This document shows positions 37,959 through 59,539 of a stretch of DNA of 64,000 bases, piece by piece. The notes beneath the pieces were generated by a model, which was given only the letters and a program-made list of their open reading frames with translations, ran no database searches and had not been told where the DNA came from. The DNA comes from Dawidia soli (lineage in GTDB: Bacteria > Bacteroidota > Bacteroidia > Cytophagales > Cyclobacteriaceae). The translations under genes were made by a program, and so were the position numbers. The stretch spans positions 1-64,000 of the forward strand of contig NZ_JAHESC010000028.1 of NCBI RefSeq assembly GCF_018598185.1, in the 5' to 3' direction. Within the stretch, counting starts at the first letter, position 1. Each line of letters opens with the position of its first letter.

Positions 37959-40900
37959 TTACTTCAGCTCTTTGATCTTGACATTCCTAAAAGACACCTC
38001 GTTACCGTGATCTTGCAGCGCGATATGTCCCTTACGGGCTTTACCAAACCCGGGCATATCTTTGAATTTGCTTTTCAATACCATCTCGTCCCACTGCTTT
38101 GTATGCATATCGAAGTGAGCGATCTGATAGCCGTTCAGCCAAAACTGACAGTTGCCGTTGTTTACGATCAGGCGCGCGCTATTCCACTCCCCCGCCGGGT
38201 TTACCGCTACAAATTTGCTTTCTATCAGATCATACAGGTCGCCGGCGCGGTGCTTTTTAATCCGGGCATCGGGGTGACAGAGATTGTCCAGCAGTTGCAT
38301 CTCGGGCCCGGTCTCCCAGGGGTGTTCAAAGTCTTTTGAGTTTACGACATTGAACAGGATCCCGCTATTACCGCATTTCCCGATTTTCCAATCCAGCGCC
38401 AGCTCAAAGTTCTCGTACTCGCGGGCAGTGGTGATGTCGCCACCTTCAAGCTCACCTGCCTTACCGGATCTATTCAAGGTCAGGACACCGTTGCGCACCT
38501 GCCACGCGCGCCCTGCGCTTCCTCCTTTGAATGACTGCCAGCCGGCTGTCGTCGCGCCGTCGAAGAGCAGCTTCCATCCTTCTTTTTGCTCTTGCTCGGT
38601 CAAGGTATTCGGCAAAGGAGCTTTCGCCGGATTTTTAAACCCGGGTGCTCCTGCAGGAATGCTGTTGAGTGTATACCATCCTTCTGTTGCCCACAAGTTC
38701 CTACCCGTAGTACTTCTGAAAATCCCTTTCAGGCGGATATACACGACGTGCCCCGGTTGCATGCCCTCGATCTCCAGGAATACTTTCTTCCGGTCGGGGG
38801 AAATATTGACCGATTTCACGGCCAGGGATTTTTCGTCCAGCTTCGGACCACCATAATCTGCCGTAGGCTTGTAGTACCATTGTTTGACCTCATAGTCTGT
38901 CGCCGAGGCGCCATCGGCCGCTGCGATCGGCTCGGTCATTTCAATTTCCATTCCGTTTGACCGGGCCCTGACCGCCAGCATTTCGAAGGCAGGATCACCG
39001 GTCCAGATCAACTTCTGAAGTCCGAACCACTTGCCGCCCGCATGCGCCCAGTTGCCGGGGTTGCCGATCATACCGGCGTATAGCGCGCCGTCGGGTCCCC
39101 ACACAGCGCGGTTTACGCCGCCCTCCAACCCTTGCGTAAACCGGAATACAACGCCCTGCATATTGCCGTTTACGTTTTCCATAAACACGCGCTTGAATCC
39201 GCCATGTGTCACTTCCCCATGGAGCATCTGCCCTTTATAAGGACCTACGCTGATCGGAACGGGCTGACTGGGCGAATTGCCTATCTCGTCCTGCGGAAGC
39301 CACACGACGGGCAGCTTCTCCGTTAATGAAGCCGTGCCTGCCGGATCAACCGAACGCGATCCATACCAGGAGCCGGGAGTGATATGCAATACCTTGCTGG
39401 ATGGAAGCCAATCGCCCTGATTATCGGTAACAAACAACTCCCCGTCGGCATTGAAATTGATCCCGTTCGGCGTGCGAAGGCCACTGGCGATGAATTCGTG
39501 ACGGCCGTCTTTCTTGGAGATCTTGATCACTTTTCCGCGGTCGGGAATCTGAGGCTGTGTACTGGCCCCACCGGGATTGATCGCCGTCGCCAGCGCGGCA
39601 TAGAAATATCCGTCCTTATACGCCAGCCCAAAAGCGAACTCGTGAAAGTTAGCGGACACCTTCCACCCGTTGCATACAGCCTCGTATCGATCTATTATTC
39701 CGTCACCATCCGTATCGAGCAACCGGGTCAGCTCGTGTTTCTGCAACACGTAGATGGTATCGTTTATCACTTTTATCCCCAGGGGTTCGGCCAGGCCGGA
39801 CGCGATGCGGGTCACTTTGATCTTCTCGGGAGCGTGGCGCGTAACGCCTTCGAGCTTGTATACCGGCCCCGTCGAATCCCAGGTACAGAGGATCAGGCTG
39901 CTGTCGGACAAGAAATCCATTCCCCCCACCTTCGGCTCGAAGGAAGACGGACGTGCCTGTTCCAGTGTAAAGGATGGGTGCACGCCGGCTTCGTCGCGCT
40001 GGTCGCCGGGAACGCTGCGTACCAGCTCACGGATCGGCACGTAAGGGATGGAGCGTTTGAAATGGGATGTCGTATGACCAAGGTTCTTTTCGTCGATGAC
40101 GGCAAACTTACCGGTATCGTGCATAGCCCATTGCAGCGACAATGCCAGGCCACCACCGCCCTGGTAAAAGATGATCTCCACAGGGTGCTTTCCTTTCTTC
40201 AGCACGATCTCGGCTTCCCGGGCCTGCGTGGCGTGAAAACCGTCATTGTCGATCAACAGCTCGTTGTCGAGCCACATGCGCGATCCGTCATCACTGACCA
40301 GGCGAAACACGAAATTGTCATCTTTTTCTATGGTAATAAACCCTTTTATATGCAAAAGCATATTCTCCCGCGATTTCGGGGCATTCTGAAAGCTCTCTTC
40401 GTTGAAATGAATGGACGGCGCCACCGCTGTATAAATGGGATCGGCGTGCTGGGGCAAGTCGTATAAATTACCTGTTGCCGACTCGATCGAATAGAGCGAT
40501 ACCGCCAGGCCGGAGTAATCCTTATTCTTCTCTCCTTTTTCAAACTCGTTCTTTTCATCCAGGCCAACCTGGATAAAGGGCGCCGCCACGCCGATACCAT
40601 TGTCGGACGCCGGCTCATTTCCCATGGTTTCACCATCCAGGGATAACACATACGAGACCATCTTGACGGCGTCCGGCTCCATCAGGTCCGGGTGCGGAGA
40701 CATCGGAACGGCACCCCAATTGCCCGAACCGCCCGTAATCACTTTATCGGCCAGCATTTTAACGTTTGCCTCGGTAAAAGCATATTTTTTAGAAATGTCC
40801 ACATAGGCCGGCCCCACGGTCTTGACCTTTTCGTTGTGACAGGTTTTGCAATCGGACGTTTCGATGAGTGCTGCTCCTTGCGTCAGGAGGTCGCCAGGCT

Positions 40901-41651
40901 GAGCTTCTTCCTTTTTATCGGTCCGCTCTTCAAATCCAGGATGGAAAAATACCTGGAGGTCCGTGTTATCATTTTCCTTCAGGAGCACCTCTACCTCGGC
41001 CTGGTATGTTGTGCCGTCCTGGCTCTTTATCTCTCCCGAGCGGATAACGCTTACATCACCGCTGCACGTGTAATCATCGGCCCCCTGCATATTGGAAAGC
41101 AACGTCCTAATCTTGACACGTGTACCGGCCGGTGCGCTCACCACGCGGAATGTCCGGGCCAGTCCCGGCTGATCCGCTTTCGGGTCATACTCCGGGCTTT
41201 CATCCACCAGGATCTCACCGCCCCCTTCATTTTCCAACTGGAAATGAAAGGTGACTTTGTTGCCTTTTATACTATAACCACGAAACTGTGGCACAGCCGG
41301 GAAATCCTTGCCGTCGCGCACCAGATACCAGAATGTGCTCCTGGCAGACTGCGTAAAATACGCGTATCCTTTCGTAGAGGGTTGCGGGCCGTGATGGGTG
41401 GTATAAACTGCACCATCAAATACTACGCCGCCTTTCCACGCCTTGTATAACTGACACGATTGTGCATCGTAGCTCACATACAGATTGTCGTGTAACGCCA
41501 CCGTGATCATTCTCGGCCGGTCGTCCAATACAGATCGAAACACCCAAGGATCGCGTGGTCGCTCGACCCTATTTCCAGATTCACAGCCAGCCATTACCGA
41601 AAACAGCAATGCGACCCATACGCCAGTTTGAACTTTGCTAATTTTTGCCAT
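37959..41651 (-). CDS. Cytochrome c / PA14 / propeller / 3-keto-disaccharide hydrolase lipoprotein
   Basis: A 1230-residue lipoprotein (lipobox Cys near 23). Domains in order: an N-terminal beta-rich region; cytochrome c with CKTCH near residue 268 and a Met candidate in VPMSPHPD; a PA14-like carbohydrate-binding domain (about 410-510; GFITIEKDDNFVFRLVSDDG, RMWLDNELLID); a sorbosone/glucose-dehydrogenase-type beta-propeller (about 550-900); an Ig-like segment; and a C-terminal 3-keto-disaccharide hydrolase domain (DUF1080; LLFDGATTAGWQSFKGG, about 1017-1229). Such domains join oxidation of a glycoside to cleavage of the keto-sugar. This suggests stepwise breakdown of a glycoside in the periplasm. 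It lies downstream of the SusCDE operon, after a repeated leader element that also precedes susC. Confidence 0.85.
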   Translation of the reverse strand: MAKISKVQTGVWVALLFSVMAGCESGNRVERPRDPWVFRSVLDDRPRMITVALHDNLYVSYDAQSCQLYKAWKGGVVFDGAVYTTHHGPQPSTKGYAYFTQSARSTFWYLVRDGKDFPAVPQFRGYSIKGNKVTFHFQLENEGGGEILVDESPEYDPKADQPGLARTFRVVSAPAGTRVKIRTLLSNMQGADDYTCSGDVSVIRSGEIKSQDGTTYQAEVEVLLKENDNTDLQVFFHPGFEERTDKKEEAQPGDLLTQGAALIETSDCKTCHNEKVKTVGPAYVDISKKYAFTEANVKMLADKVITGGSGNWGAVPMSPHPDLMEPDAVKMVSYVLSLDGETMGNEPASDNGIGVAAPFIQVGLDEKNEFEKGEKNKDYSGLAVSLYSIESATGNLYDLPQHADPIYTAVAPSIHFNEESFQNAPKSRENMLLHIKGFITIEKDDNFVFRLVSDDGSRMWLDNELLIDNDGFHATQAREAEIVLKKGKHPVEIIFYQGGGGLALSLQWAMHDTGKFAVIDEKNLGHTTSHFKRSIPYVPIRELVRSVPGDQRDEAGVHPSFTLEQARPSSFEPKVGGMDFLSDSSLILCTWDSTGPVYKLEGVTRHAPEKIKVTRIASGLAEPLGIKVINDTIYVLQKHELTRLLDTDGDGIIDRYEAVCNGWKVSANFHEFAFGLAYKDGYFYAALATAINPGGASTQPQIPDRGKVIKISKKDGRHEFIASGLRTPNGINFNADGELFVTDNQGDWLPSSKVLHITPGSWYGSRSVDPAGTASLTEKLPVVWLPQDEIGNSPSQPVPISVGPYKGQMLHGEVTHGGFKRVFMENVNGNMQGVVFRFTQGLEGGVNRAVWGPDGALYAGMIGNPGNWAHAGGKWFGLQKLIWTGDPAFEMLAVRARSNGMEIEMTEPIAAADGASATDYEVKQWYYKPTADYGGPKLDEKSLAVKSVNISPDRKKVFLEIEGMQPGHVVYIRLKGIFRSTTGRNLWATEGWYTLNSIPAGAPGFKNPAKAPLPNTLTEQEQKEGWKLLFDGATTAGWQSFKGGSAGRAWQVRNGVLTLNRSGKAGELEGGDITTAREYENFELALDWKIGKCGNSGILFNVVNSKDFEHPWETGPEMQLLDNLCHPDARIKKHRAGDLYDLIESKFVAVNPAGEWNSARLIVNNGNCQFWLNGYQIAHFDMHTKQWDEMVLKSKFKDMPGFGKARKGHIALQDHGNEVSFRNVKIKELK

Positions 41652-41696
41652 TGATTGATAAAAGAATGATACACAGATCACAAGGAAAAATCACCC

Positions 41697-41727
41697 CTTG
41701 ATGTCTCCGATGTTTTTTTTAAATTTG
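41697..41727 (+). promoter_or_regulatory. Candidate promoter for the first repeat-element RNA
   Basis: TAAATTTG (41720-41727) fits the Bacteroidota -7 box TAnnTTTG exactly, and CTTG at 41697-41700, 19 bp upstream, is close to the -33 TTTG. A transcript would start near 41733, right where the 120-bp repeat begins (GGTTTTAG). This supports plus-strand transcription of the repeat. Confidence 0.4.
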
Positions 41728-41730
41728 ATT

Positions 41731-41852
41731 GGTTTTAGTTCATGAAAATGGACATAACTGTCCTGACGGTTTGGATACGAGCGGCAATTCATAGTCAAAC
41801 CCAGGGATCTTAATGCAAGTCGGTGATGTTCCAACATCACCGATTTTTTTTT
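41731..41852 (+). ncRNA. Repeated element copy 1, candidate small RNA
   Basis: A ~120-bp sequence also found at 48981-49101 (about 80-85% identity by eye, including an identical 19-base block AGCGGCAATTCATAGTCAA). It ends with TCGGTGATGT-TCCA-ACATCACCGA, a perfect 10-bp hairpin at 41820-41843, and a run of nine T, so on the plus strand it has the end of a rho-independent terminator. No plus-strand gene precedes it within 3.8 kb, so it should end its own short RNA. The element begins 80 bp upstream of the minus-strand 1230-residue lipoprotein start and would run antisense to that gene's leader. Alternatively it holds a minus-strand promoter (TTGACT, 15 bp, TATCCA). Confidence 0.5.
41820..41852 (+). 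terminator. Rho-independent terminator of repeat copy 1
   Basis: A perfect 10-bp stem (11 with a minimal loop) at 41820-41843 is followed by nine T residues at 41844-41852. This is the strongest terminator in the locus, yet no annotated plus-strand gene uses it. Confidence 0.75.
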
Positions 41853-42041
41853 GTATCTATCTACCTCATAGGAAGTTAGCATCAAATGAACATACGTTGC
41901 CGCCCCTTTACCCATAAGCGCCGGTGTCAGCATACTTTACTATCCATATAGTACACGAACCGGCAGATTTTTACTCTTTCCCATCAAAAAAAAGTAGCGG
42001 CCACAGGTATGAGCCCCTCGATAGGATATACCCACTACGAC

Positions 42042-42069
42042 AAGTGGGCGCCCGGTCAGGCGCCCACTT
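42042..42069 (-). terminator. Hairpin past the SusE-like gene
   Basis: AAGTGGGCGCC and GGCGCCCACTT form a perfect 11-bp GC-rich stem around a 6-nt loop, 55 bp past the SusE-like stop. No T-run follows on either strand. A second, mutually exclusive stem (CCCAC 42031-42035 with GTGGG 42044-42048) overlaps it. It may end or protect the susCDE transcript. Confidence 0.5.
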
Positions 42070-42123
42070 ATACAGATCAACGTTTCAGCAGCTGTTCTGG
42101 CTCACGGCTCCCGCCCTGAGAGA

Positions 42124-43617
42124 TCACTGCTTCACAATGGAAATCGTTTCTTTCAACTGGTTGACGGTGATGGTATAGGTGCCTTCTTCACCTGCCTTCA
42201 ATTTGAACTTATTAACCGACGTACCGGTAGACGTAAACGACAACTGCGTCGCCGTTATGCCTGCACCGGACGTTGGTGCGGCAAAGAACGTGGTATTCGA
42301 GGCCTCTGACGACACCGGGAACGTAAACTGGCCCCGTCCGGCTGCGTTGAGCTCGCCGGTCCATGTAAATACGTACGGATCGTCCGGATCTGCGGTCATC
42401 GCGATAGCATTGGCCGGATCCCATCCCGCGGACGTTGCGTCGCCAAGGATATAAAGCTGGTCGAACGGCACATACTTCATGATCCGTATGGAACGGTTCG
42501 CGCCGATATTGAGAATGATCTTATAGGGCCCCGCATCGACAACGTCCCATTTATTATCCGGCGTTGCTTTTGCATGGAGATTGACATCGGTGCTGGTGAC
42601 GGCTCCGTTATCTACGGGAGGCATGTAACTATCTACGCTCCAGTTACCGGTACCCGTCATGATTTTGAATTTGCCGTTTGTCAGAACCTCGTTATACTTA
42701 AACTGGTAGATATTGGTGGGATCGGCCGCCATTTCATTGGGGTTGTCTTTGTTCCATCCATTGGGTGTTGCATCTCCCACGATCCACATTTTTGTGTATG
42801 CCGCAGGTGTGACATCCTTCGAGGTCGGCGTGGCCTTAAACATAACCGGATTGGATTTAACCACTTTATCACTGATGATCACACTCGCGGTGACCTGTGC
42901 GGTAACATCGGCGGTTTTACCGGCCTCTATTCTCAATTTATCGATGAGGAGGTTATTCAGGTCAACATGGGTAAACTCTTTGCTGACATCGGTCAATACA
43001 TCGACTGTTGTAGTCCACGTACCCGCTGTCAGAACAATCTTGTACTCAATAAACAAGCTCTTGGCCGTGGCCCACGCCAGAGTAACCGCTTCGCCGGCAG
43101 GGTTCGCCAGGTCGGTGTATACTTCCGTCTTCGAAACCGACAGCGTTACATCGTCGAGGGCCGGCTCGGGTACTTTGGGCGAGGGTGTCACAACGACCGT
43201 AATCACATTGGACAAGCTACTTTTAGTACCATCCGTAACGTTCGCAACAACAACGACATCCACGCTTGCCGGTTTTCCGATTTCAAGCCCTAGGTCATCC
43301 ACCATTATTTTATTAAAGGCTGCATGGATGAACTTCCGGCTGACCTCGGATAAAACGTCTACCGTATCAGACTTTCCATTCGCAGTAAAAACCAACTTAT
43401 ACTGAACAAGAGAGCTCTTTTCAGCGTGCCATGAAAACGTAATTACTTCGTCTGTCGGTTTGTCGTAATCAACGACGACCTCAGCTTTCGAAGCTGATAA
43501 AACGCCGACGTCTATCGGCACCTGGCGTGGATCATCATCACTGCAGGAAAACAATGTCACTAACAACAGTAGCGTCGCCGCATAATAAAAGCGGTTTATA
43601 TAGTTATTATTTTTCAT
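42124..43617 (-). CDS. SusE/SusF-like outer-membrane glycan-binding lipoprotein
   Basis: The 497-residue protein has a lipobox (VTLFSCSDDD, Cys near 25), two N-terminal SusE-type Ig-like repeats (about 35-145 and 155-270, each starting LSASKAEVVVD or LSVSKTEVYTD and containing W-x-A-x-K-S), and two C-terminal carbohydrate-binding-like domains (starting MWIVGDATPNGW and LYILGDATSAGW). This is the SusE layout: surface glycan binding that assists the SusC/D importer. It is the third gene of the minus-strand operon after susC and susD, 99 bp from susD. Confidence 0.85.
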   Translation of the reverse strand: MKNNNYINRFYYAATLLLLVTLFSCSDDDPRQVPIDVGVLSASKAEVVVDYDKPTDEVITFSWHAEKSSLVQYKLVFTANGKSDTVDVLSEVSRKFIHAAFNKIMVDDLGLEIGKPASVDVVVVANVTDGTKSSLSNVITVVVTPSPKVPEPALDDVTLSVSKTEVYTDLANPAGEAVTLAWATAKSLFIEYKIVLTAGTWTTTVDVLTDVSKEFTHVDLNNLLIDKLRIEAGKTADVTAQVTASVIISDKVVKSNPVMFKATPTSKDVTPAAYTKMWIVGDATPNGWNKDNPNEMAADPTNIYQFKYNEVLTNGKFKIMTGTGNWSVDSYMPPVDNGAVTSTDVNLHAKATPDNKWDVVDAGPYKIILNIGANRSIRIMKYVPFDQLYILGDATSAGWDPANAIAMTADPDDPYVFTWTGELNAAGRGQFTFPVSSEASNTTFFAAPTSGAGITATQLSFTSTGTSVNKFKLKAGEEGTYTITVNQLKETISIVKQ

Positions 43618-43716
43618 ACATGATTCTTTATAGGTCAGGTATAGTGAGTTCTAATTGACGTCTGAAGACTACCCTGGCTTGGCAGCAAACCCGGGTAGTC
43701 TCTCATCGGTCGTTCA

Positions 43717-45558
43717 TTACCAATAGGGGTTTTGAACCAGGTTGGGATTCTTATCAATTTCGGATTGAGGGACGGGAAACCAGTAGTTCTTCTTGGTAAA
43801 CACGCGTTTCTGATACACCGTGCGCTTATAGAAGGCGTTGGCGTTGTTGGGATCATCCGATTTTTCCTTGCCGAAGAAATTCATGCCGGTAAAATCTCCG
43901 GCCAAAACCTCTTCTCCGATCTTCCATCGGCGTATATCACTGTAGCGAATGCCCTCACAGTTGAGCTCTACGCGTCTTTCGCGACGGATAACCTCCCGCA
44001 TGGCCGCCTGACCCGGGTCGGCCGCCAGGGCCGGTACGCCGGCGCGCTCGCGGACCAGGTTTAAATACGTCAGAACATCGGGGTGGCCTGGATCGGTCTC
44101 ATTCAGGGCTTCTGCGTAATTGAGGTACGCCTCCCCCAGTCGGTAGAGAATTCCCGGCCGGTACGGATTTGTTCCATTCCGTGGATCATAGTCCGGGTGA
44201 ACCTTCTTACGAACCAGGTAGCCATTCTGCGGCGCATCCCATGTCGGCCCGCCATCCGGCTGATCTAAGAAGAAGTTCGTTTTCCGGTTCTCGCGACGGT
44301 GCCACTCCTCATTAAACATGACCGAGATATAAAAGCGGGGCTCGCGGTTACAATACATATTATAGGTACCTGCCAACGTCACCTTGCCCACGCCGTTAAC
44401 TTCGTCCCATTTTGTGTTGCGTACTTCGTCTGCTGCCGAAAAACCGTTTTCAACATATCCGGACGCCGGATCTGTGATCGGCAGACCGTTCTTCATATAA
44501 AAGGCATCGACCAGCGACTGGGTGACACCCAACCCGCCGTTACCACCGGTGCCGCGGGGCTGAGCATGCTTGTCATACTCCGACGAATTCACATCCGGCC
44601 GGGCAAACAGGATCTCTTTATTGCCATCGATCGATTTCTTAAACATCATGTTCTGGTACGAGAGGAATGGGTCGATGCTGGCATCGTCGTTATACTCGTA
44701 ATAAAGCTTGTGGCCCGCATCATGTGCCTTCTCGATCAGTAGTCTGCAAGCATCGGTTGCACGCGTCCATTTACCGGCGTCATAGCTGGAATTGTATAGT
44801 GCCACACCTTTGTCGTTTATGAAGTCTGCATAGTCGGGATTACCGTTGACGAGTGGACTGGCTGCAAACAGCAGCATGCGCGCGCGCACGGCCAGGCACA
44901 TGATAGAAGTGGCCCTGCCAAATTTGCTATTATTGGTATACGCCGCCGGCAGCTTTGTAGACAGGTCTAAAAGCTCGGCATCGATCCAGCTGATCACGTC
45001 ATCAAAAGGAGTCTGGCCCAGGAACAATTCTTCCGGCGGGGCATCGGTCTCTGTCAGGCCTGTATTAAAGGGGATAACGCCGTACATTTCTGTCATGAGC
45101 CAGTAGTAGTAGGCGATAAGGAATCGTGCTTCATATTTCATGAGGTCGACTTCCTCCTGTGTGACCTTCTGTGCATCGTTGGGCTTGACGTTATCCAGAA
45201 AGATATACGCCGATCGGATACGCTTCGGTAATACGTCCCAGTAATTGGGCTCGGTGTTGCCGGGCGTCCAATTCCCTTGTTGCCGGTCCACTACCCACCA
45301 GCCGAATTGCGCCCACCGGTAAGAAGGGTTCAGGTCGTCAGACAATGGGTCGTAGCCTATATGCCGGGTAAATCCCCAGTAAGGGTCGGGAATACTGGAA
45401 TAAATGCCGGCCAGCCAGTCCTCCGTGCGCACCTTGTCGTTAAACACCATTTCCAGTGTAAGCTGGTCGTCAGGTTCCTTGTCCAGGAAATCCGAACACG
45501 ACACAGCCGCCACAAGCAAAACAGCCAGTAATATATTCTTCAGGAAGTTCATACGCAT
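43717..45558 (-). CDS. SusD/RagB outer-membrane glycan-binding lipoprotein
   Basis: The 613-residue lipoprotein (lipobox VAAVSCSDFL) is a typical SusD. It has TPR-like helices in its N-terminal half and the family C-terminal block EALNETDPGHPDVLTYLNLVRERAGV, RRERRVELNCEGIRYSDIRRWKIG and the end motif VPQSEIDKNPNLVQNPYW. It forms the lid of the SusC channel and binds the substrate at the surface. The gene follows susC with a gap of 18 bp, so they are co-transcribed. ATG 45552, two codons downstream, is an equally likely start. Confidence 0.92.
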   Translation of the reverse strand: MRMNFLKNILLAVLLVAAVSCSDFLDKEPDDQLTLEMVFNDKVRTEDWLAGIYSSIPDPYWGFTRHIGYDPLSDDLNPSYRWAQFGWWVVDRQQGNWTPGNTEPNYWDVLPKRIRSAYIFLDNVKPNDAQKVTQEEVDLMKYEARFLIAYYYWLMTEMYGVIPFNTGLTETDAPPEELFLGQTPFDDVISWIDAELLDLSTKLPAAYTNNSKFGRATSIMCLAVRARMLLFAASPLVNGNPDYADFINDKGVALYNSSYDAGKWTRATDACRLLIEKAHDAGHKLYYEYNDDASIDPFLSYQNMMFKKSIDGNKEILFARPDVNSSEYDKHAQPRGTGGNGGLGVTQSLVDAFYMKNGLPITDPASGYVENGFSAADEVRNTKWDEVNGVGKVTLAGTYNMYCNREPRFYISVMFNEEWHRRENRKTNFFLDQPDGGPTWDAPQNGYLVRKKVHPDYDPRNGTNPYRPGILYRLGEAYLNYAEALNETDPGHPDVLTYLNLVRERAGVPALAADPGQAAMREVIRRERRVELNCEGIRYSDIRRWKIGEEVLAGDFTGMNFFGKEKSDDPNNANAFYKRTVYQKRVFTKKNYWFPVPQSEIDKNPNLVQNPYW

Positions 45559-45576
45559 TCTGTTAAGATGTTTAGC

Positions 45577-48500
45577 TTAAAATTCCAGGTTGATTCCAGC
45601 GGAGAAGGATTTCATGATCGGATACCGGAAACCATTGCCTGTATTGATTTCCGGGTCCCAGAGATCAAATTTTGAAAAGGTCAGGAGGTTGTTGCCAGAG
45701 ATGAAGATCCGCGCACTCTTCGCACGCGCCTTCTCGGCAAATTCCCGTGGCAGGCTGATCCCGATTTCAACATGTTTCAGCCGCAGCATACTCATGTCGC
45801 GGAGCCACCAGGTAGACGGCCGGTTGTTATTGCCGGCACTCTGAAAGGATGCCCGGGGCCAGAATGCACTCGGATTCGGGTTGTCTACTGTCCAACGATC
45901 GGTCAGCACGGTTTCATACACGTTGCCCGCAGCACCGCCGCCCGAGCCCGGCAGAAAGAAGTCGCCTCCTAATACCCTATACGTTCTGGCATTCCCCTGG
46001 AAGAAAAATCCGAAATCGATGTTCTTGTATCGGGCGTTAAGACCGAATCCGTATACGATCTGCGGGTCGACGGTTCCCGTTAATGTAGTCTGATCGATGT
46101 TCGTAATGGCACCGTCACCGTTGAGGTCGGCATATTTGATATCCCCGGGACGGACCGGACCGAGCTCGGCTCGCGGCAACGTGCTGACCAGTACACCATT
46201 TTCAATGTCGGCAAAATCAGCATTGGTATATAAACGCTCTGCTACATAGCCAAAATTCTGATCGACCGATTTACCGGTCCTTGAACGATAGGTTCCGATC
46301 ACCGCCGGAGCCTCATCTTGCTCAACAATTTCATTTTTGGCGTAGGTGAATGTGCCTTGTCCGGAAATAAACCAGTCTGATGTCAACTGTTTATCGGCGC
46401 TCAGCGAAAGATCAACACCGTGATTCTTCACTTTGCCATAATTGGCATTCGGTTTTTCTACAAAGCCCGCCGAGCTGGGTATTGTCTGGCGCTGCATAAA
46501 AATGTCTTTGCGCTCTTCTTTAAAAAAGTCCACTTGAAGCAATACACTGTTCCAGAATCCCAGCTCTACCCCGAGATTTGCTTTGGTCACCGTTTCCCAC
46601 GTAAGATTCGATACGCCCTTGATCCCTTCCTGCCGGCCGGCTCTGTGGAAGTCGTTGTTAACACCCCAGCGATAGTCGTCGGTCTCGCCGATGGTGGAGA
46701 TGTAAGCATAGCGTATGAATCGATCGTTTCCCACCTGACCGAGGGAGGCGCGGATCTTCAGGCGCGACACAACGTCTTTGATAGCTGACATAAATTCCTC
46801 CTCTGTCGCGACCCAGCCCAGGGCCATGGAAGGAAAAAAGCCGAAGCGGTTGTTCTTTGATAAATTTTCAGATCCATTGTATCCGAAGTTCGCTTCCGCA
46901 ATATATTTACGCTTGAACGAGTAGGAGGCACGCGCAGCCATGCCCTGAAAGCGAAACGGCAATCTGTCGCCATTGTCATAATTCCGCTGGTTGTACAACA
47001 ACAGACCGTCCAGATAATGGTTACCGATGTTGTGGCTATAGTTGAGGCTACCCTCGATATAAACGCTTTTATCGCCAAACTCCGCCTTCGTCTCACTATT
47101 CAAAAATACCTGGCCGAACCGGTCGATATCCAGCATCAATTCCCCGTTTTCATCGCGGCCGGTGGTCGGCTTGTAATAATCCGGATCCTTTTTGCGCACC
47201 ACGCTGTTGGCGGTATAGCGATCAAAAGAAAATAGCACACGGCCGCTCAAGCCGGGAACAATCGCATCCATAGCTTGCTGAACAGAAAAAAGCGACTCGA
47301 TCTTGCTGGTATTGCCGCGTTCATATCCGGTTTGTGTCGCCACGGACCAGGGATTAGTCCGATCCGCATTCACCCGCGGGATCTCACCACTGGAGTATTG
47401 GGTCGGGTGGACATGCGGCGCTGTTTGAAACGCCTGATCAAATAAAAAGTCCATGGATTGCGGCGGGCGGTTCGTCTCCTGCAAATAACCGCCGATGTTC
47501 ACCCGCAGCAAAGTGGTAGGGGTAACATCGAGATCTACGTTGGAGCGGATGTTATAGCGTTTTAATTTCATCGACGAATCCCATTCCTGGTTGGGATCGC
47601 GTGCGACAATGCCGCTCTCGGCATAATGTGAGCCCGTAATGGCATAGCGCAGGAAATTGGTACCGCCGGAAGCCGTTAAATTGATCCGGCTGTTTGACGC
47701 GTTCTCCTTCGTGATCGCATCCAGCCAGTTCACGTCCGGATACAGGTCCGGATCGACTTTGTTGCGTGTGTTGTTGATCCGGTCTTCCGAATAGTTGGGC
47801 AGCTGGCCCTGATCCTGCGATATCTCGTTCATCAGCTCCATGTAATCGGCCGCCCCGATGAACTTGGGCAGTTTTACCGGGCTCGTAACACCCTGCTCAT
47901 ACCGCAACACAATAGAGGGCTTGCCTACATCGCCCCGCTTGGTATTGATGAGCACCACACCGTTGGCACCACGCACGCCATATACGGCGCTGGCGGATGC
48001 ATCTTTTAAAACCGACACCGACTCTATTTCTGCCGGATCGATGGTATTCAGCGAGCGCTCAACACCATCCACCAGCACCAGTGGCGTACGGGAGCCGGCA
48101 AACGTAGAGATGCCACGGATCCAAAAATTCGAATCGTCATAGCCGGGTTCGCCCGAGCGTTGTACACCGATAATGCCCGCAACCTGCCCGGCAAGATTAT
48201 TACTCATCGACCGCGTGGTACCATACTGAAGTTGTTTTTGAACATTGACCGACGAGATCGCTCCCGCACTGGTATATTCCTTCTGCGTACCATAGCCGAC
48301 GATCACCACCTCGTTCAGGGCAGCCACGTCGGTCGTCATCTTCAAATCCACAGAGGCCTGATCACCCACCGAGAGCTCTTCCGTCTTATAACCGATAAAA
48401 GAAAAAACAAGAATGTTCCCCTTGTCTGCCCCGGCGAGGGAATACCGGCCATCGGCATCCGTGACGGTACCGATCAATGTGCCCTTGATCGTAACGCTCA

Positions 48501-48972
48501 CGCCGGGAAGCCCCATCCCTTCTTCATCGGTAACGGTCCCTGTGATCGTTTGGACCAGATTGATCGTGGGGGCTACCTCGGCCGTTTTTTCCCCAGTGCT
48601 TTTAACACTTTGCTTCGTTAAGATGATGTAGTCTCCCAGCAGCCGGAACTGTACATCCTTGGGAAATATACCTCTGAGTACATCCGACAGTTTTTCGTCG
48701 GTGTAGTCATCCGAAACTCTTTCGTCAACAGAAATCGTTTGCGGGTTATAGGTAAATTTTATGGCGACCGATTTTTCGATCTCCAATAAAATCTGCTTAA
48801 TCTTTTTACCTTGAGTATTAACGGATATGATCTCATCCAACACGCTCTGTCCGTATGCCTTGGTGGGCCTCGCAGTCACCACACCCGATACTAAAACTAT
48901 GAGCAATACCTGTAATACTGTAAGTCTCATAATTGTCAAAATCAAACCACGCTGTGTCTGACGTGTTTTCAT
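45577..48972 (-). CDS. SusC-type TonB-dependent transporter with STN domain
   Basis: The 1131-residue outer-membrane transporter has a signal peptide, an STN signalling domain (about 45-115; LLEIEKSVAIKFTYNPQTI), a carboxypeptidase-like regulatory domain (about 140-220; GTVTDEEGMGLPGVSVTIKG), the SusC plug (LNEVVIVGYGTQ, VLKDASASAVYGVRGANGV) and a barrel ending in SAGINLEF. The STN domain talks to a FecR anti-sigma factor, and exactly such a FecR/ECF pair lies upstream, so substrate binding should induce the operon. A 120-bp repeated element begins 8 bp upstream of its start. Substrate unknown. Confidence 0.93.
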   Translation of the reverse strand: MKTRQTQRGLILTIMRLTVLQVLLIVLVSGVVTARPTKAYGQSVLDEIISVNTQGKKIKQILLEIEKSVAIKFTYNPQTISVDERVSDDYTDEKLSDVLRGIFPKDVQFRLLGDYIILTKQSVKSTGEKTAEVAPTINLVQTITGTVTDEEGMGLPGVSVTIKGTLIGTVTDADGRYSLAGADKGNILVFSFIGYKTEELSVGDQASVDLKMTTDVAALNEVVIVGYGTQKEYTSAGAISSVNVQKQLQYGTTRSMSNNLAGQVAGIIGVQRSGEPGYDDSNFWIRGISTFAGSRTPLVLVDGVERSLNTIDPAEIESVSVLKDASASAVYGVRGANGVVLINTKRGDVGKPSIVLRYEQGVTSPVKLPKFIGAADYMELMNEISQDQGQLPNYSEDRINNTRNKVDPDLYPDVNWLDAITKENASNSRINLTASGGTNFLRYAITGSHYAESGIVARDPNQEWDSSMKLKRYNIRSNVDLDVTPTTLLRVNIGGYLQETNRPPQSMDFLFDQAFQTAPHVHPTQYSSGEIPRVNADRTNPWSVATQTGYERGNTSKIESLFSVQQAMDAIVPGLSGRVLFSFDRYTANSVVRKKDPDYYKPTTGRDENGELMLDIDRFGQVFLNSETKAEFGDKSVYIEGSLNYSHNIGNHYLDGLLLYNQRNYDNGDRLPFRFQGMAARASYSFKRKYIAEANFGYNGSENLSKNNRFGFFPSMALGWVATEEEFMSAIKDVVSRLKIRASLGQVGNDRFIRYAYISTIGETDDYRWGVNNDFHRAGRQEGIKGVSNLTWETVTKANLGVELGFWNSVLLQVDFFKEERKDIFMQRQTIPSSAGFVEKPNANYGKVKNHGVDLSLSADKQLTSDWFISGQGTFTYAKNEIVEQDEAPAVIGTYRSRTGKSVDQNFGYVAERLYTNADFADIENGVLVSTLPRAELGPVRPGDIKYADLNGDGAITNIDQTTLTGTVDPQIVYGFGLNARYKNIDFGFFFQGNARTYRVLGGDFFLPGSGGGAAGNVYETVLTDRWTVDNPNPSAFWPRASFQSAGNNNRPSTWWLRDMSMLRLKHVEIGISLPREFAEKARAKSARIFISGNNLLTFSKFDLWDPEINTGNGFRYPIMKSFSAGINLEF

Positions 48973-48980
48973 AAATAATA

Positions 48981-49101
48981 GGTTTTAGGTCATGAAAATG
49001 AACTTAACTATCGCGGAAGGATTGGATACGAGCGGCAATTCATAGTCAATCCCCGTGATTGTAATGCAAGTCGATGGTGTTCTGACATCACCGATTTTTT
49101 T
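48981..49101 (+). ncRNA. Repeated element copy 2, candidate small RNA antisense to the susC leader
   Basis: The second copy of the 120-bp element, in the same orientation as copy 1, lies 8 bp upstream of the susC start codon and 51 bp past the FecR stop. Its terminal hairpin (TCGATGGTGT with ACATCACCGA) has one mismatch and one G-U pair and is followed by T7 on the plus strand. A -7-like TAAATAAT precedes it, less perfect than for copy 1. A plus-strand transcript would be antisense to the susC 5' leader, as described for DonS-type RNAs at ECF/FecR-controlled loci in Bacteroides. Alternatively it is the minus-strand promoter region of susC. Confidence 0.45.
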
Positions 49102-49151
49102 CCGAGTATTTATTATTTCATAGGCAATTCATTTTTTAAGTGGGTTGAAGT

Positions 49152-50240
49152 TTATTGACAGCCAGCACTATTGATGACAACATTCGCATCAATGATCTCA
49201 TAGCTGGCGCCAATTGTTTCGCATATTATTTTGAGCTTGTCCCGCAAGGATTCCGATCCCAGCGGGGCGGTTATATAGCAATTCTTCATAACCTCCTCGT
49301 TGAAGATTATTTCCACGCCATAGGCAGATTCAATCGTCTGAAACGCTTCCGCGATCGGCGCATTGTCAAATGCAAAATCGCTGGGTGCAATCTCGGTCGA
49401 GCCCAAAAACTCAGGAGATTCGATCAACGTCTTTTCAAACTGATGATTCTTTCTTTCGTATGTAACCTGCTGATTCGGCAGGAGTATGACCCCGCCCAGT
49501 TTATCATTATGTTTGACAACCTCTGTCGGCGCCGAGACCGACACCTTACCCGTCTTCACCGATACGAGAACCTTCTCGCCATTTTCCGGAGACTCCACGT
49601 GAAAGCTCGTTCCCAATACTTTGACCACGACTTCATTGGAATGAACAATGAAAGGTTTGTAGGGATTCTTCGTCACATTAAAAAAAGCTTTGCCCAGCAT
49701 GTATACCTGGCGCAAAGAATCTTTTGAAAATCCTTTCTTATACTTCAGCTTGCTTTTGCTTTCCAGCACGACCGTGCTTCCGTCTTCCAGTCGGATCTCA
49801 AGCGGTTCATCGGTATCGTTCATCCGCTCGACAAAGTCGTCGCCCTGTTGATTATATGCAGACAGCGGCTGATCAATCCGGATCAACCGTGGCTGGAACC
49901 AAAACACCGCCGCGGCTGAAAGGAAAAGAACAGACGCCAGGGCTACCGCCCAGATCTTTTTTGAGACCGTCTGTTCAGGAGAACGCCCCGCATTTGCCTC
50001 TACCCGGTCCTGGATGTTGGCCCACATAGCATCGACCTGCGCGCTGTCGTACGCTGTCTCTTCTGCTGCTTTCAGGTTAAGGACCAACGCCCGGGCCTTT
50101 TCAGCTTTTTCCTTTATTTCCGGGTGCGTGGAGATATATAGATCCCAATACTTTACAGCTTCGGGATCTGATTGTTTGACCCAATCTATAAAGCTTTCAT
50201 TTGAAGCAAGATCTTCAACGGTTAAGTTTTTGTGGTCCAT
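49152..50240 (-). CDS. FecR-family anti-sigma factor
   Basis: This 362-residue inner-membrane regulator has a cytoplasmic N-terminal part that holds the sigma factor, one membrane helix (KIWAVALASVLFLSAAAVF, about 85-105), a FecR domain (about 130-240; LEIRLEDGSTVVLESKSKLK, GKAFFNVTKNPYKPF, VKVLGTSFHVESP) and a C-terminal DUF4974 domain (FDNAPIAEAFQTIESAYGVE) that contacts the STN domain of the partner SusC. It lies between the ECF sigma gene (78 bp upstream) and susC, the standard Bacteroidota order. Confidence 0.93.
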   Translation of the reverse strand: MDHKNLTVEDLASNESFIDWVKQSDPEAVKYWDLYISTHPEIKEKAEKARALVLNLKAAEETAYDSAQVDAMWANIQDRVEANAGRSPEQTVSKKIWAVALASVLFLSAAAVFWFQPRLIRIDQPLSAYNQQGDDFVERMNDTDEPLEIRLEDGSTVVLESKSKLKYKKGFSKDSLRQVYMLGKAFFNVTKNPYKPFIVHSNEVVVKVLGTSFHVESPENGEKVLVSVKTGKVSVSAPTEVVKHNDKLGGVILLPNQQVTYERKNHQFEKTLIESPEFLGSTEIAPSDFAFDNAPIAEAFQTIESAYGVEIIFNEEVMKNCYITAPLGSESLRDKLKIICETIGASYEIIDANVVINSAGCQ

Positions 50241-50318: not shown

Positions 50319-50909
50319 TCAAAAAAAATTTAGGAAAATGAAAAAACTGGTAACAGATACCTTGAGATTAACCTTGAGCTTGCGGATGGCCTGAAATATG
50401 AAGTTAGCGGCCGACTGGTAGTTTACGCCCATGATCTTCGCAATTTCCTCGTTTGAAAAGTCATGGTAATAGCGAAGATTGATCGCTTCCTGCTGTCTTT
50501 TAGGCAGCTGGCTGATCAGCGCGCGGAGGTTTTCCATTTGTTGCGATTGCACCTCAAAGCGGATCAATTTGCTTTCATGCGACGGCGAAGCGAGATTTTC
50601 AAACAGATCAAGATCGAGCGTATTGGTAAAATCGTTTGACTTTGTGTTCCGTTGAATTTTGTAGCGAAGCGCTTTGAATAAATAGAATTTGATGGAATTG
50701 GGCTCAGTAATGCGCTCCCGGGTATTCCACAATTCAAAAAACAGATCCTGAATGCTGTCTTCTACCAGCGTACGGTCGCCTGAGATCTTGCTGCCATAGT
50801 TAAGCAACGCACCGACATAAAAACGGTACAGTGCAGCAAATGCAGCCTTGTCTCCGTCTTTAAAAGAGCGCCAGATGTTATCGTCGAGCTGCGTATCGCC
50901 TTTGGACAT
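50319..50909 (-). CDS. ECF sigma factor of the FecI/SusC-associated type
   Basis: The 196-residue product has region 2 (FAALYRFYVGALLNYGSKIS, then VEDSIQDLFFELW) and region 4 (LPKRQQEAINLRYYHDFSN, EEIAKIMGVNYQSAANFIFQ) and no other domain. It should direct transcription of the susCDE operon when released by FecR. The longer frame starting at 50990 begins with TTG and adds 27 unlikely residues, so ATG 50909 is used. The repeated 120-bp element next to susC and upstream of the 1230-residue gene may carry its target promoter. Confidence 0.92.
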   Translation of the reverse strand: MSKGDTQLDDNIWRSFKDGDKAAFAALYRFYVGALLNYGSKISGDRTLVEDSIQDLFFELWNTRERITEPNSIKFYLFKALRYKIQRNTKSNDFTNTLDLDLFENLASPSHESKLIRFEVQSQQMENLRALISQLPKRQQEAINLRYYHDFSNEEIAKIMGVNYQSAANFIFQAIRKLKVNLKVSVTSFFIFLNFF

Positions 50910-51073
50910 GCTACACAGGTTAGGGGTACTTCTACGCAATTTAGAATAAAGATCCGTTTCCGCAAACGTTTTTTGCCGACAATCACCCAAAGCATCGGCA
51001 TCAAATAATATAATGAGCGGGTATCATACTTCCGCTCGCTTCCACTATTTTTAATTATTATCTAAGCTTACAC

Positions 51074-52117: not shown

Positions 52118-54895
52118 ATGCTCAACGCTACACTCACCCGGACCTTTGCACTCCTGCTGTGGTCACTCAGTCTCCTCTCCTGCCACCAGGACCCGGAGGA
52201 TCGGCAGTACACGATTGGTTTTTCGCAATGTACCGGCGGTGACGCCTGGCGACGGCAGATGCTGTCGGCCATGAAGGGTGAGCTTCTCTTTCATCCGGAG
52301 ATCGACCTGCAATACCGGGACGCGCGCGGCGACAACGCCAAACAGATCAGCGATATCCGCGACCTCGTCAAGAATGGAATCGACCTGTTGATCGTGTCCC
52401 CTAACGAGGCCAGCCCCATCACGCCCGTGGTGGAAGAAGTTTTTAAAATGGGCATTCCCGTCATTGTTGTCGACAGAAAGATCAGCTCCAGTTTTTATAC
52501 CGCCTATATCGGCGCGGATAACTACGAGATCGGTAAGCTGGCAGGGTCCTATGTTTCCGAGCTGCTGGGAGGAAAGGGCAAACTCATAGAGATCTGGGGT
52601 TTGCGTGGATCAACACCGGCCGTAGAAAGACACAAAGGATTCATGAGCGCATTGTCAGGTTTTCCGGACATCGATATTGTACACGAGTTCGATGGCGCTT
52701 GGGAGATCGACACTGTCAAACATGGCCTGGGGGCAACGATCACACAAGCACCTGCGGTAGACCTGGTGTTTGCACACAACGATGTAATGGCGTATGGCGC
52801 CTATGAGGTGTTTAAAGAAAGTCGACCGGACAACGATACAAAGTTCATTGGTATAGATGGTTTGCCGGGGCCGGCGGCGGGTATCCAGCTCGTGGATGAC
52901 AAGATCTTATCCGCCACGTTCCTCTACCCCACCGGCGGTGAAGAGGCCATTCGCACGGCCGGCAGGATCCTGAAGAAGGAGCACTTTGATAAAGACAATA
53001 TGCTGCTCAGCACGGTCATCGATCCGAAAAATGTGCGCGTCATGAAACTGCAAACCGACAAGATCTCGAGTCAGCAGGCGGATATTCTGCGGCAGCAGGA
53101 AAAAATCAATGAGCAGGTCAATGCCTATACCAAGCAGTCTGTACTCATTTATATATTGCTGGCCAGCCTGGTGGCAACCATCATCGGCGGTGCTGCCGCC
53201 ATCCTGGCCTGGCGTGAAAAGAACGAGATAAACCGGCAGCTCGAAGCGAAGCGAAACCTGATCCTCGAGCAGAAGAACGAGATTGCGGAAATGGCCGAGA
53301 AGGCAGAGTTGGCCACACAGGAAAAGCTGAAGTTCTTCACCAATATCTCGCACGAATTCAAAACGCCGCTGACATTGATCCTCGGCTCGATCGACGAGAT
53401 CATTTCCAAAAACACCCCCGACAGAATAACGTCCACCGACAACCTTCGCCTCATCCGCAAAAATGCTGTCCGGTTGTTGCGGCTCGTCAACCAGCTGATG
53501 GATTTCCGGAAGATCGAAGACCGGAAAATGCTGCTGCGGGCCAGTGAGCTGGATCTCGTGGCGTTCATCGAAGACGTCATGGCGGCATTCCAAAAGACAG
53601 CTTCCCGACGGAACATCCGGTATACATTGCTTGGCCATGCCGACCGGCTTCCGGTATGGTTTGACCCTGATAAGCTCGACAAGGTCATCTTTAACCTCCT
53701 GTCGAACGCATTTAAGTTCACCCATGACAATGGAAAAATAACATTGACCATTTCAGTGGACGAGCCCGCCAGGAATGCGATCATTTTTGTGGAAGACAAC
53801 GGCGTGGGCATGTCCAGGGAAGATGCCGATCACGCTTTCGACCGTTTCCACACCGGTGAGCATTCCGCCGGAACAGGCATAGGACTGTCGTTATCAAAAG
53901 AGTTTATGGAGCTGCACCACGGCAGCCTCCTGTTGACCAGCGAGCCGGGAAAAGGCACGCGCTTCTGTATTGTGCTGCCACTGGGCAAAGCGCATTTGTC
54001 GGACAACGAAATTGCCACCCGCGACCGCGCGTTTGTACACGACGTCGACCACGAGGCCATTGCCGAGGATATACATCTGTCCACTGCCGACAACGACAGT
54101 GAAAACGATCTTACTATTAAGGAGCACACCGTTCTTATTATAGACGACAACCAGGAAATGCGTTTCTTCATCCGGAAGAAGCTGCAGCCGCACTATAATA
54201 TCCAGGAAGCACAGGACGGCGTTTCGGCTCTTGAAAAAGCGTTCAGCACCGTCCCAGACCTGGTCATTTGCGACGTCATGCTGCCCGGCAAGAGCGGCAT
54301 TGACGTGACCACCACCTTGAAAAATGACCTGCGGACTTCCCACATTCCGGTGATCATGTTGACGGCGCGAGGCTCTATCGAGCACAAAATTGAAGGTGTA
54401 AAGACAGGCGCCGATGAATACCTCACCAAGCCGTTCGTGTTTGAATACCTCAGCGAACGCATTAAGGCCCTGCTCAGGAATCGCAAGCTACTGCGCGAGC
54501 ACTACATCCACGGCCTGAATGTCAGCACCGTCACCACCGCCCCCGGCAACCTCGATCGCAAATTCATCAACGACTTTACCGCCCTGATCGAAAAGAACGT
54601 GGCCAATGCCGACCTGGGCGCCAACGAGATTGCCCACGAGCTCGGCATGTCCCGTGTGCAGGTATACCGCAAGGTCAAGGCCCTGCTGGGATTCAGCATC
54701 AACGACTACCTGGTGAACGTCCGGCTTCAGAAAGCAAAATACCTGCTGCTGAACACAGACAAAAGCGTTGCGGAGATAGCCCAGGAGGTTGGGTTCTCAT
54801 CGCCGGCCTATTTCTCCACCATCTTTAAGAACAAAGTAAAACAGCCCCCTACCGAGTTCAGGTCCAATAAGATGAGCCTGCACACCCCGAATTGA
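52118..54895 (+). CDS. Hybrid two-component sensor with periplasmic sugar-binding domain
   Basis: The 925-residue one-protein system has a lipobox-like start (LLSCHQ), a type I periplasmic sugar-binding domain (about 28-330; TIGFSQCTGGDAW, FAHNDVMAYGAY), a membrane helix (about 345-370), a HisKA domain (phospho-His near 412 in NISHEFKTPLT), HATPase (N-box NLLSNAFKFTH, G-boxes DNGVGM, GTGIGL), a receiver (Asp in VICDVMLPG, near 720) and an AraC-type DNA-binding domain (about 833-920). In Bacteroides such a PBP-type hybrid sensor (BT1754) binds fructose and controls a fructan locus. The genes directly downstream here are a fructose porter, a GH32 and a fructokinase, which supports the same role. 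Confidence 0.93.
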   Translation: MLNATLTRTFALLLWSLSLLSCHQDPEDRQYTIGFSQCTGGDAWRRQMLSAMKGELLFHPEIDLQYRDARGDNAKQISDIRDLVKNGIDLLIVSPNEASPITPVVEEVFKMGIPVIVVDRKISSSFYTAYIGADNYEIGKLAGSYVSELLGGKGKLIEIWGLRGSTPAVERHKGFMSALSGFPDIDIVHEFDGAWEIDTVKHGLGATITQAPAVDLVFAHNDVMAYGAYEVFKESRPDNDTKFIGIDGLPGPAAGIQLVDDKILSATFLYPTGGEEAIRTAGRILKKEHFDKDNMLLSTVIDPKNVRVMKLQTDKISSQQADILRQQEKINEQVNAYTKQSVLIYILLASLVATIIGGAAAILAWREKNEINRQLEAKRNLILEQKNEIAEMAEKAELATQEKLKFFTNISHEFKTPLTLILGSIDEIISKNTPDRITSTDNLRLIRKNAVRLLRLVNQLMDFRKIEDRKMLLRASELDLVAFIEDVMAAFQKTASRRNIRYTLLGHADRLPVWFDPDKLDKVIFNLLSNAFKFTHDNGKITLTISVDEPARNAIIFVEDNGVGMSREDADHAFDRFHTGEHSAGTGIGLSLSKEFMELHHGSLLLTSEPGKGTRFCIVLPLGKAHLSDNEIATRDRAFVHDVDHEAIAEDIHLSTADNDSENDLTIKEHTVLIIDDNQEMRFFIRKKLQPHYNIQEAQDGVSALEKAFSTVPDLVICDVMLPGKSGIDVTTTLKNDLRTSHIPVIMLTARGSIEHKIEGVKTGADEYLTKPFVFEYLSERIKALLRNRKLLREHYIHGLNVSTVTTAPGNLDRKFINDFTALIEKNVANADLGANEIAHELGMSRVQVYRKVKALLGFSINDYLVNVRLQKAKYLLLNTDKSVAEIAQEVGFSSPAYFSTIFKNKVKQPPTEFRSNKMSLHTPN

Positions 54896-55104
54896 AACGA
54901 TTTTAGAAGGATGTAACAATAGTAGAAGCCGCCGACGGCATTTCTCTGTTCGAATTTGTATCGACAACCAGCAAGGGGCCGGTGCTGCATACGTTTGTAA
55001 CGGTTTCTTTTCCAGCGAGCGAATGATCCAATTTTGAAAAAGGTTGGTACTTCATCGCAAACCGGATTGCGGCCGCGCCGATACTTTGCGTGAAACTTCT
55101 CGCA

Positions 55105-56472: not shown

Positions 56473-56497
56473 AAAACAGAAGCAAAAAACTAAACAC

Positions 56498-58231: not shown

Positions 58232-58244
58232 TCAGGATTATAGC

Positions 58245-59135: not shown

Positions 59136-59163
59136 TCTATCGATATAATCAGCGTTCATACAT

Positions 59164-59194
59164 ATACCCCGCCATCCGGTGGGGTATTTTTTTT
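59164..59194 (+). terminator. Rho-independent terminator after fructokinase
   Basis: ATACCCCGCC and GGTGGGGTAT form a 10-bp stem with one G-U pair around loop ATCC, followed by eight T residues. It ends the porter-GH32-fructokinase unit and separates it from susC. Confidence 0.85.
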
Positions 59195-59486
59195 GTACTT
59201 ACCGCTCATCACCGCTGTTACTCACACCGCTTCGCCGATACGCCAACACGTATTCCCACGCTCCGGCCTCTTACATCTTGCTTCCGGTTTTGTTACTCCG
59301 CTTCATGATACAAAACTCCAAGGATGTATCAATTTCAAAAGCCCCGGGCTCCCGAAACAGCAGTAAAACGATTTAGAAAAGAAGATTCTATGCAATCGTT
59401 GGCGGTATTTACAGGCGATGCATGCGCTTGATCCAATAGTGAAAAACCTTGATACAAGACGGAACATCGATCGCGGGTGGGTGCTA
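59195..59486. other. Intergenic leader region upstream of the second susC
   Basis: About 290 bp without a gene. It holds AAACGATTTAGAAAAGA (59366-59382), similar to AAACGATTTTAGAAGGA just after the sensor gene (54895-54911), both ahead of fructan-locus units. No long hairpin or second repeat is seen. Confidence 0.35.
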
Positions 59487-59494
59487 TACTTTTG
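59487..59494 (+). promoter_or_regulatory. -7 promoter box of the second susC
   Basis: TACTTTTG fits TAnnTTTG exactly, 45 bp upstream of the susC start. No clear -33 TTTG lies 19-21 bp upstream, which would suit a promoter that needs activator help, as expected under the hybrid sensor. Confidence 0.45.
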
Positions 59495-59539
59495 ATCGTC
59501 CTAGGTACCCTTAAACACAACCCACAAACTCTAAAACCC

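Follow-up and report, generated by a model that had tools for sequence, protein, structure and literature searches.

The 64,000-nucleotide (nt) stretch of Dawidia soli DNA analyzed here (contig NZ_JAHESC010000028.1, positions 1 to 64,000; hereafter the window) contains two copies of a ~122-nt element in a sugar-uptake locus controlled by an extracytoplasmic function (ECF) sigma factor and the anti-sigma regulator FecR. Copy 1 (41731-41853, plus strand) precedes the gene for a large protein with a 3-keto-disaccharide hydrolase domain, termed the keto-hydrolase below, and copy 2 (48981-49104, plus strand) lies antisense to the 5' leader of the TonB-dependent transporter gene susC. The best explanation as a whole, and in our judgement a probable one, is that copy 1 is an active antisense RNA gene whose product would act in cis on the keto-hydrolase leader and in trans on susC. 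Copy 2 is probably a weakened gene of the same origin and the trans target of copy 1. In that case a single RNA would couple sugar import to an enzyme gene some distance away.

Two copies of an antisense element

A prior sequence-only reading of this DNA had claimed two ~120-bp copies in the same orientation, ~80-85% identical, each just upstream of a minus-strand gene and each ending on the plus strand in a hairpin and a T-run, and all of this was borne out. BLAST paired the copies in the same orientation at 82% identity over 149 nt (E = 4.6e-34) and 85% over 124 nt (E = 7e-34). Their longest identical run is a 28-nt core, found at 41771-41798 in copy 1 and at 49022-49049 in copy 2 (plus strand). 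Copy 2 directly precedes susC, and copy 1 lies ~80 nt ahead of the keto-hydrolase ATG. The T-run that follows the hairpin is T9 in copy 1 (41844-41852) and T7 in copy 2 (49095-49101). The intrinsic terminator of copy 1 (41817-41852, plus strand) has a hairpin energy of -15.7 kcal/mol, and the copy 2 hairpin one of -8.4 kcal/mol; a consensus terminator scan listed the former, with 13 pairs, and not the latter, which has a mismatch in its stem. No third copy was detected at BLAST sensitivity in the D. soli genome (7.48 Mb, 122 contigs, 98.5% complete), where the next match after both copies and the hairpin's own reverse complement had an E-value of 0.6.

An exact match to the -7 promoter box TAnnTTTG, TAAATTTG, had also been noticed ahead of copy 1; it lies at 41720-41727 (plus strand) and is identical at 8/8 positions in Parachryseolinea silvisoli. 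The box of copy 2 (48972-48979, plus strand) is degenerate, reading TAAATAAT in the window and TAAATTTA and TAAATTTT in the two relatives that carry the pair. With the transcription start set 5 nt past the box, using the -12 to -5 placement of TAnnTTTG that appears in passages of PMC9723704, the copy 1 antisense RNA gene is predicted to occupy 41732-41853 (plus strand, ~122 nt), as judged from box position, terminator and an island of between-species identity described below.

The copy 1 fold is stronger than that of all 200 shuffled versions (z = -3.15) and the copy 2 fold is stronger than that of 189/200 (z = -1.66). A coding function was rejected, because the ATG frames on the plus strand differ between the copies and yield neither a common open reading frame (ORF) nor a shared peptide. 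A search of Rfam at the gathering score placed no family on the element, its sole match being a tRNA elsewhere, and found no family in loci L020 and L021. With the threshold relaxed to E up to 10 over 41500-49500, the single match fell well short of its gathering score and did not overlap the element.

Asymmetry of the two copies

Including D. soli, three of seven genomes of the genus carry the pair, the others being P. silvisoli and Pseudochryseolinea flava, with the copies 5.9-7.3 kb apart; BLAST with copy 2 across 295 genomes of the family found the pair in the same three genomes only. The copies are unequal in all three species. The -7 box is exact in every copy 1 and imperfect in every copy 2, the terminator energies are -15.7, -15.3 and -15.1 kcal/mol for copy 1 and -8.4, -10.8 and -4.5 kcal/mol for copy 2, and the T-run of copy 2 is broken in two of the three. 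Three near relatives with a single match to the covariance model described below (L074, L076 and L087) all have both exact box and terminator.

Upstream of copy 1, in the promoter region of its predicted RNA, is an apparent fossil of ~11 susC N-terminal codons (41689-41720, minus strand). Its start codon has changed from ATG to AAA in the window and to ATA in P. silvisoli, and the six invariant positions of the antisense box are all intact. The fossil is identical at 30/31 positions (41689-41719) between these two genomes, fossil plus box at 38/39, and the RNA at 115/126. Identity in the flanks is 23/37 toward the keto-hydrolase, 29/51 upstream of the micro-ORF described below, and 121/200 over the rest of the interval to susE. 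This island of identity suggests that conservation at copy 1 falls on the antisense unit together with its promoter. Conservation at copy 2 leans the opposite way, toward the susC start, although less sharply: the susC codons are identical at 31/33 positions, the RNA at 105/124, the terminator at 33/41, the box region at 8/10 and the stretch upstream of the micro-ORF at 23/30.

The sequence-only reading had likened the element to DonS-type antisense RNAs. A plus-strand antisense RNA gene of that appearance is what the sequence supports, but the part of the claim that made the copies two equal paralogues did not hold, given the imperfect box and weaker terminator of copy 2 in three species. For the same reason, a single active RNA facing two complementary leaders is a better fit than two RNAs that both work. 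The coordination of import and enzyme by RNA that had been suggested may still occur.

Structure and history of the pair

The alignment of both copies from the three species, six sequences in all, fits one plus-strand structure of 40 pairs, with 90.3% of cells paired against 87.5% in shuffles. Changes on both sides of a pair occur in 6/40 pairs (shuffle mean 3.2; 7/500 shuffles reach 6); the central helix accounts for five of these and the terminator for one, and the 5' helix has none. The covariation score is 0.158 against 0.112 in shuffles, is reached by 0/500 of these and also exceeds that of slid versions. All these figures are flattered, since the structure was derived from the same six sequences.

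Between the P. flava lineage and the other two species, the core differs by three substitutions and a one-base insertion, and copy 1 and copy 2 show identical differences. Such parallel changes fit homogenization, repeated duplication or selection for complementarity. Copy 1 precedes the keto-hydrolase gene in P. silvisoli, as in the window, and a second susC/susD pair in P. flava. In the latter (L073 16436-16621; L021 5584-8625) the module, first susC codons included, stands ahead of a second susC that is only ~35% identical. This appears to be a case of the regulatory module being placed before another transporter.

Antisense modules in fecR-susC gaps

A covariance model built from the six sequences was searched in the 295 family genomes at E <= 1 and matched 13 of them. 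Besides the three genomes that carry the pair, these were two further members of the genus (E = 6.7e-6 and 5.7e-5) and eight other family genomes (E = 0.003-0.3). The sequence-only reading had proposed a search of this kind for antisense matches at susC leaders, and such matches were indeed found in the fecR-susC gap of both additional genus genomes and of four of the eight others (G136, G096, G050 and G030); in G030 the sense-strand match of the same hairpin is slightly better (E = 0.17, against 0.28 for antisense). The matches in the other four had no fecR-susC context. Five matching loci outside the genus (L059, L061, L063, L064 and L071) showed neither susC nor FecR by tblastn and were taken as chance terminators, and three more matches (L062, L069 and L070) were the opposite strand of elements already counted. 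Because a covariance model favors its own kind, the gaps were then surveyed without it, and this survey agrees.

For the D. soli genome, 30 loci were taken from 39 FecR matches. Removal of 2 without FecR by tblastn, 6 without SusC and 7 with gaps shorter than 90 nt left 15 gaps. An antisense terminator is present in 11 of these and a sense terminator in none, and the start codon carries an exact box in 4. A larger sample came from the best 80 FecR relatives listed, all near the window's own FecR; SusC follows FecR in 77, and 67 gaps are at least 90 nt long. An antisense intrinsic terminator is present in 49 of these and a sense one in 4, where shuffles lead one to expect 1.95. With the first ATG taken as the start, the box there is exact in 29/67 and has at most one mismatch in 40/67; with any in-frame ATG allowed, the leading T of TAnnTTTG faces the A of a susC ATG in 43/77 loci. 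Nearly all boxes in these fecR-susC regions (44/51) sit exactly over the susC ATG. Where box and terminator are both present (34/67), the distance from ATG to hairpin end is 105-131 nt in 33 loci and 148 nt in one. Within the flanks retrieved, some of them short, a further repeat of the gap occurs in four of the 67 loci, two of which (L072 and L073) carry the present module and two (L111 and L121) other repeats.

A translation signal was considered as the cause of the start-codon box. Over codons 1-70 of the open frame, the sense counterpart of the box, CAAANNTATG, marks an in-frame ATG in 42/76 FecR-linked susC genes and in 2/619 other ORFs of at least 200 codons from the same loci; it is therefore no general translation signal, and that explanation was rejected.

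A phylum-wide sample of best matches, 30 loci drawn from 30 genomes out of the 59 that had any, gave 21 usable gaps, one of them from D. soli itself. Antisense terminators number 7 and sense terminators 0, the former divided as 7/15 within the window's own class and 0/6 outside it. The counts in all these surveys ignore kinship among loci. They suggest that an antisense module is common at the ECF/FecR-susC loci of the sampled relatives, and the ~122-nt element can be placed in this wide group of predicted antisense RNA genes lying between fecR and susC. The signature of the module, CATAnnTTTG over the start codon and a terminator ~120 nt away, allows it to be sought from sequence alone. Many stems of the antisense terminators resemble one another from genus to genus (GGTnATG...CAT.ACC, by eye), perhaps more closely than termination requires.

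Micro-ORFs in the susC leaders

Both leaders of the window contain a micro-ORF on the minus strand, MK* upstream of susC (49113-49121) and MR* upstream of the keto-hydrolase gene (41861-41869), recognized from the sequence and from the statistics of the class. With at most 60 nt scanned, an ATG lies between the fecR stop codon and the antisense hairpin in 39/49 loci (43% expected in shuffles), and the ATG nearest the hairpin opens an ORF of at most 10 codons in all 39 (46% expected). Counted over the gap up to the hairpin, 60/72 ATGs open such short frames, compared with 93/203 in other co-directional gaps and 24/43 in fecR-susC gaps without an antisense terminator; in the D. soli genome the first of these counts is 21/28. 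The share of gaps with any micro-ORF at all, 54/67, is not a test, as it counts every ATG in the gap. The micro-ORF is often preceded by GCCT. Six loci share the peptide MIKLPP*, with synonymous codon differences and differing stop codons. There are fewer independent cases than the counts suggest, since many of the loci counted are closely related (Niastella and others). A ribosome on the micro-ORF would adjoin the end of the antisense pairing region. A literature search on these micro-ORFs returned nothing apparently related.

Possible mechanism and alternatives

We read the element as an antisense small-RNA (sRNA) module of the type that occupies fecR-susC gaps at sugar-uptake loci under ECF control. 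RNA polymerase carrying the main sigma factor would transcribe the plus strand from a -7 box, which coincided with the susC start codon in the ancestral module, and would stop at the terminator ~120 nt on. A transcript running from the start-codon box to that terminator would be complementary to most of the susC leader. With the start codon doubling as -7 box, the start of translation and antisense transcription would be unable to evolve apart. The module would have been copied to a second site, copy 1 being the working RNA gene and copy 2 mainly the susC leader, with its own antisense gene fading. The copy 1 RNA would pair perfectly with the keto-hydrolase leader in cis, provided that this leader starts upstream of the element, and in trans with the susC leader through an 82-85% match that presents the identical 28-nt core in a hairpin. 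Both susC and the keto-hydrolase gene would thus be held down when the inducing glycan is absent. We infer transcription, repression and trans action from these features; the module, its class, its orientation and the asymmetry of its copies can be read off the DNA.

Energies computed ignoring RNA-internal structure predict duplexes of -226.4 kcal/mol for the copy 1 RNA with its own leader, -155.5 with the susC leader and -64.5 with the strongest-pairing of the leaders of 14 other susC genes in the genome; for the copy 2 RNA they are -230.6 with its own leader and -149.9 with the other. Action of copy 1 on susC in trans is plausible, though in our judgement somewhat less likely than not. The locus may further illustrate how a cis-antisense RNA turns trans-acting, the susC copy keeping the target and losing the RNA gene and the other copy keeping the RNA gene without the susC start, against a wider background in which the start codon is the -7 box in about half of the sampled FecR-linked susC genes; we offer this a shade more tentatively still. 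As one place where cis and trans action should be separable, the locus is relevant to the origin of trans-acting sRNAs.

Several observations weigh against the explanation offered here. The reverse strands fold nearly equally well (copy 1 z = -3.13, copy 2 z = -1.28), and since the fold does not tell the strand, we argue the strand from T-run and promoter box. Both exact box and terminator are wanting in 14/67 loci, including L072 (P. silvisoli) and L073 (P. flava). On its own, the condition of copy 2 is therefore unremarkable, and it is the exact box of copy 1, kept without a start codon, that carries weight. Moreover, 9/67 loci combine a one-mismatch box with a terminator, and copy 2 of the window keeps its T7, so that copy 2 may still be transcribed. 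Whole-element identity within one genome (0.76-0.77) is not above that between lineages (0.68-0.77), and only the core therefore speaks for upkeep of complementarity. The tree does not separate an old duplication from grouping by lineage (approximately unbiased test, p = 0.069 for the old duplication), and three related species represent few independent events.

Some of these points favor an alternative that we regard as unlikely but of some weight, namely that the locus encodes two independent cis-antisense RNAs, each repressing only the gene that it overlaps, with the identical core a relic of duplication. Each RNA is predicted to fit its own leader best, and the nine loci with one-mismatch boxes have good terminators. 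Such a pair agrees poorly, however, with the decay of box and terminator at copy 2 in three species and with the retention of an antisense promoter at copy 1, which lacks the susC start codon and is set back from the keto-hydrolase ATG. A minus-strand promoter with a structured 5' leader, belonging to the ECF regulon, would be common to two operons of one locus; the core would then be the promoter and the plus-strand terminator incidental. By eye the core resembles TTGAC...CGTAT on the minus strand, CCTATGA lies upstream on that strand in both window copies, and the reverse strand folds as well as the forward. We nevertheless consider this interpretation very improbable in view of the excess of antisense over sense terminators among the 67 gaps, a core spacer that differs by 1 nt between lineages, and the poor conservation of the upstream side of the copy 1 minus-strand leader compared with the antisense promoter side (29/51 and 38/39). 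A sense motif, AACCC...TATGA, was examined as an ECF promoter and dropped, its spacing varying by eye from ~5 to 19 nt; no sense promoter is thus claimed, and the idea that copy 1 had lost a sense -35 element was dropped with it.

Least probable of all is that the element is a functionless repeat left by a susC duplication, although P. flava does have a second susC behind copy 1 and copy 1 of the window carries the susC fossil. Mere residue would hardly retain its RNA and promoter side at the identities given above when neighboring non-coding stretches have fallen to 0.57-0.62, and the both-sided changes in pairs argue in the same direction.

Comparison with known systems

DonS-type cis-antisense RNAs of Bacteroides polysaccharide utilization loci (PULs) were reportedly described by Cao et al. 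in 2016. Passages of PMC7366714, PMC11697453 and PMC9723704 describe them as antisense to the susC 5' region in PULs; PUL-associated antisense RNAs are also mentioned in a portion of PMC10994844, and excerpts of PMC9723704 refer to RNAs of this type at 15 B. fragilis loci and also give -12 to -5 as the position of TAnnTTTG. DonS-type RNAs are known from Bacteroides of the gut. Passages of a 2025 paper (PMC11697453) describe DonS as a repressor whose mechanism is unknown. The reported size, 78-128 nt, includes the ~122 nt predicted for the copy 1 RNA. Copy 2, between fecR and susC in an ECF/FecR locus, occupies the DonS-type position. Copy 1 does not, since it precedes the keto-hydrolase gene (window and P. 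silvisoli) or a second susC (P. flava), and we therefore call it a derivative that may work like the DonS kind rather than a plain member. By sequence match, its exact box predicts a main-sigma promoter of its own on the antisense strand, as expected of the DonS kind. Unlike DonS, the module is duplicated within one locus, has one copy at a non-susC gene, has copies that have decayed unequally, and comes from another host group. The likeness is judged from described position and size.

The FopS (GibS) family of B. thetaiotaomicron resembles the present element in being a multicopy sRNA. Passages of PMC11697453 describe FopS RNAs as multicopy, ~65-70 nt long, with a single-stranded 5' seed, and as repressing susC mRNAs in trans; the 14 members comprise 9 intergenic, 4 antisense and 1 from a 3' untranslated region, and the family is stated there to be deposited in Rfam. 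No Rfam match, FopS/GibS included, overlaps the element even at E up to 10, the presence of FopS in the release used being unchecked.

The DonS-type kind is itself already known. A literature search returned nothing on a duplicate, a split or a start-codon overlap, although it was not aimed at exactly these and did not take in the original DonS paper.

It is a general idea that a cis-antisense pair can split into a trans-acting sRNA when, after duplication, each copy loses the function of one of its strands, and the present pair would follow that pattern. We know of no described case in Bacteroidota, our literature search not having been aimed at this idea.

Genes of the locus

The genes around the element were assigned by Pfam matches, and all are on the minus strand. 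An ECF sigma factor (50319-50990) and fecR (49152-50240) are followed by susC (45577-48972; Plug and CarbopepD_reg_2 domains), susD (43717-45558), a susE-like gene (42124-43617) and the large keto-hydrolase gene (37959-41651), whose product combines 3-keto-disaccharide hydrolase, PA14, DUF7133 and cytochrome c domains. Elsewhere in the window, 27104-30535 encodes another DUF7133 protein, with HEAT and cytochrome c domains. The adjoining plus-strand region, 52118-62620, encodes a periplasmic-binding hybrid two-component regulator, a sugar transporter, a GH32 protein, a PfkB kinase and another TonB receptor; judged by its parts, it is perhaps a fructan locus.

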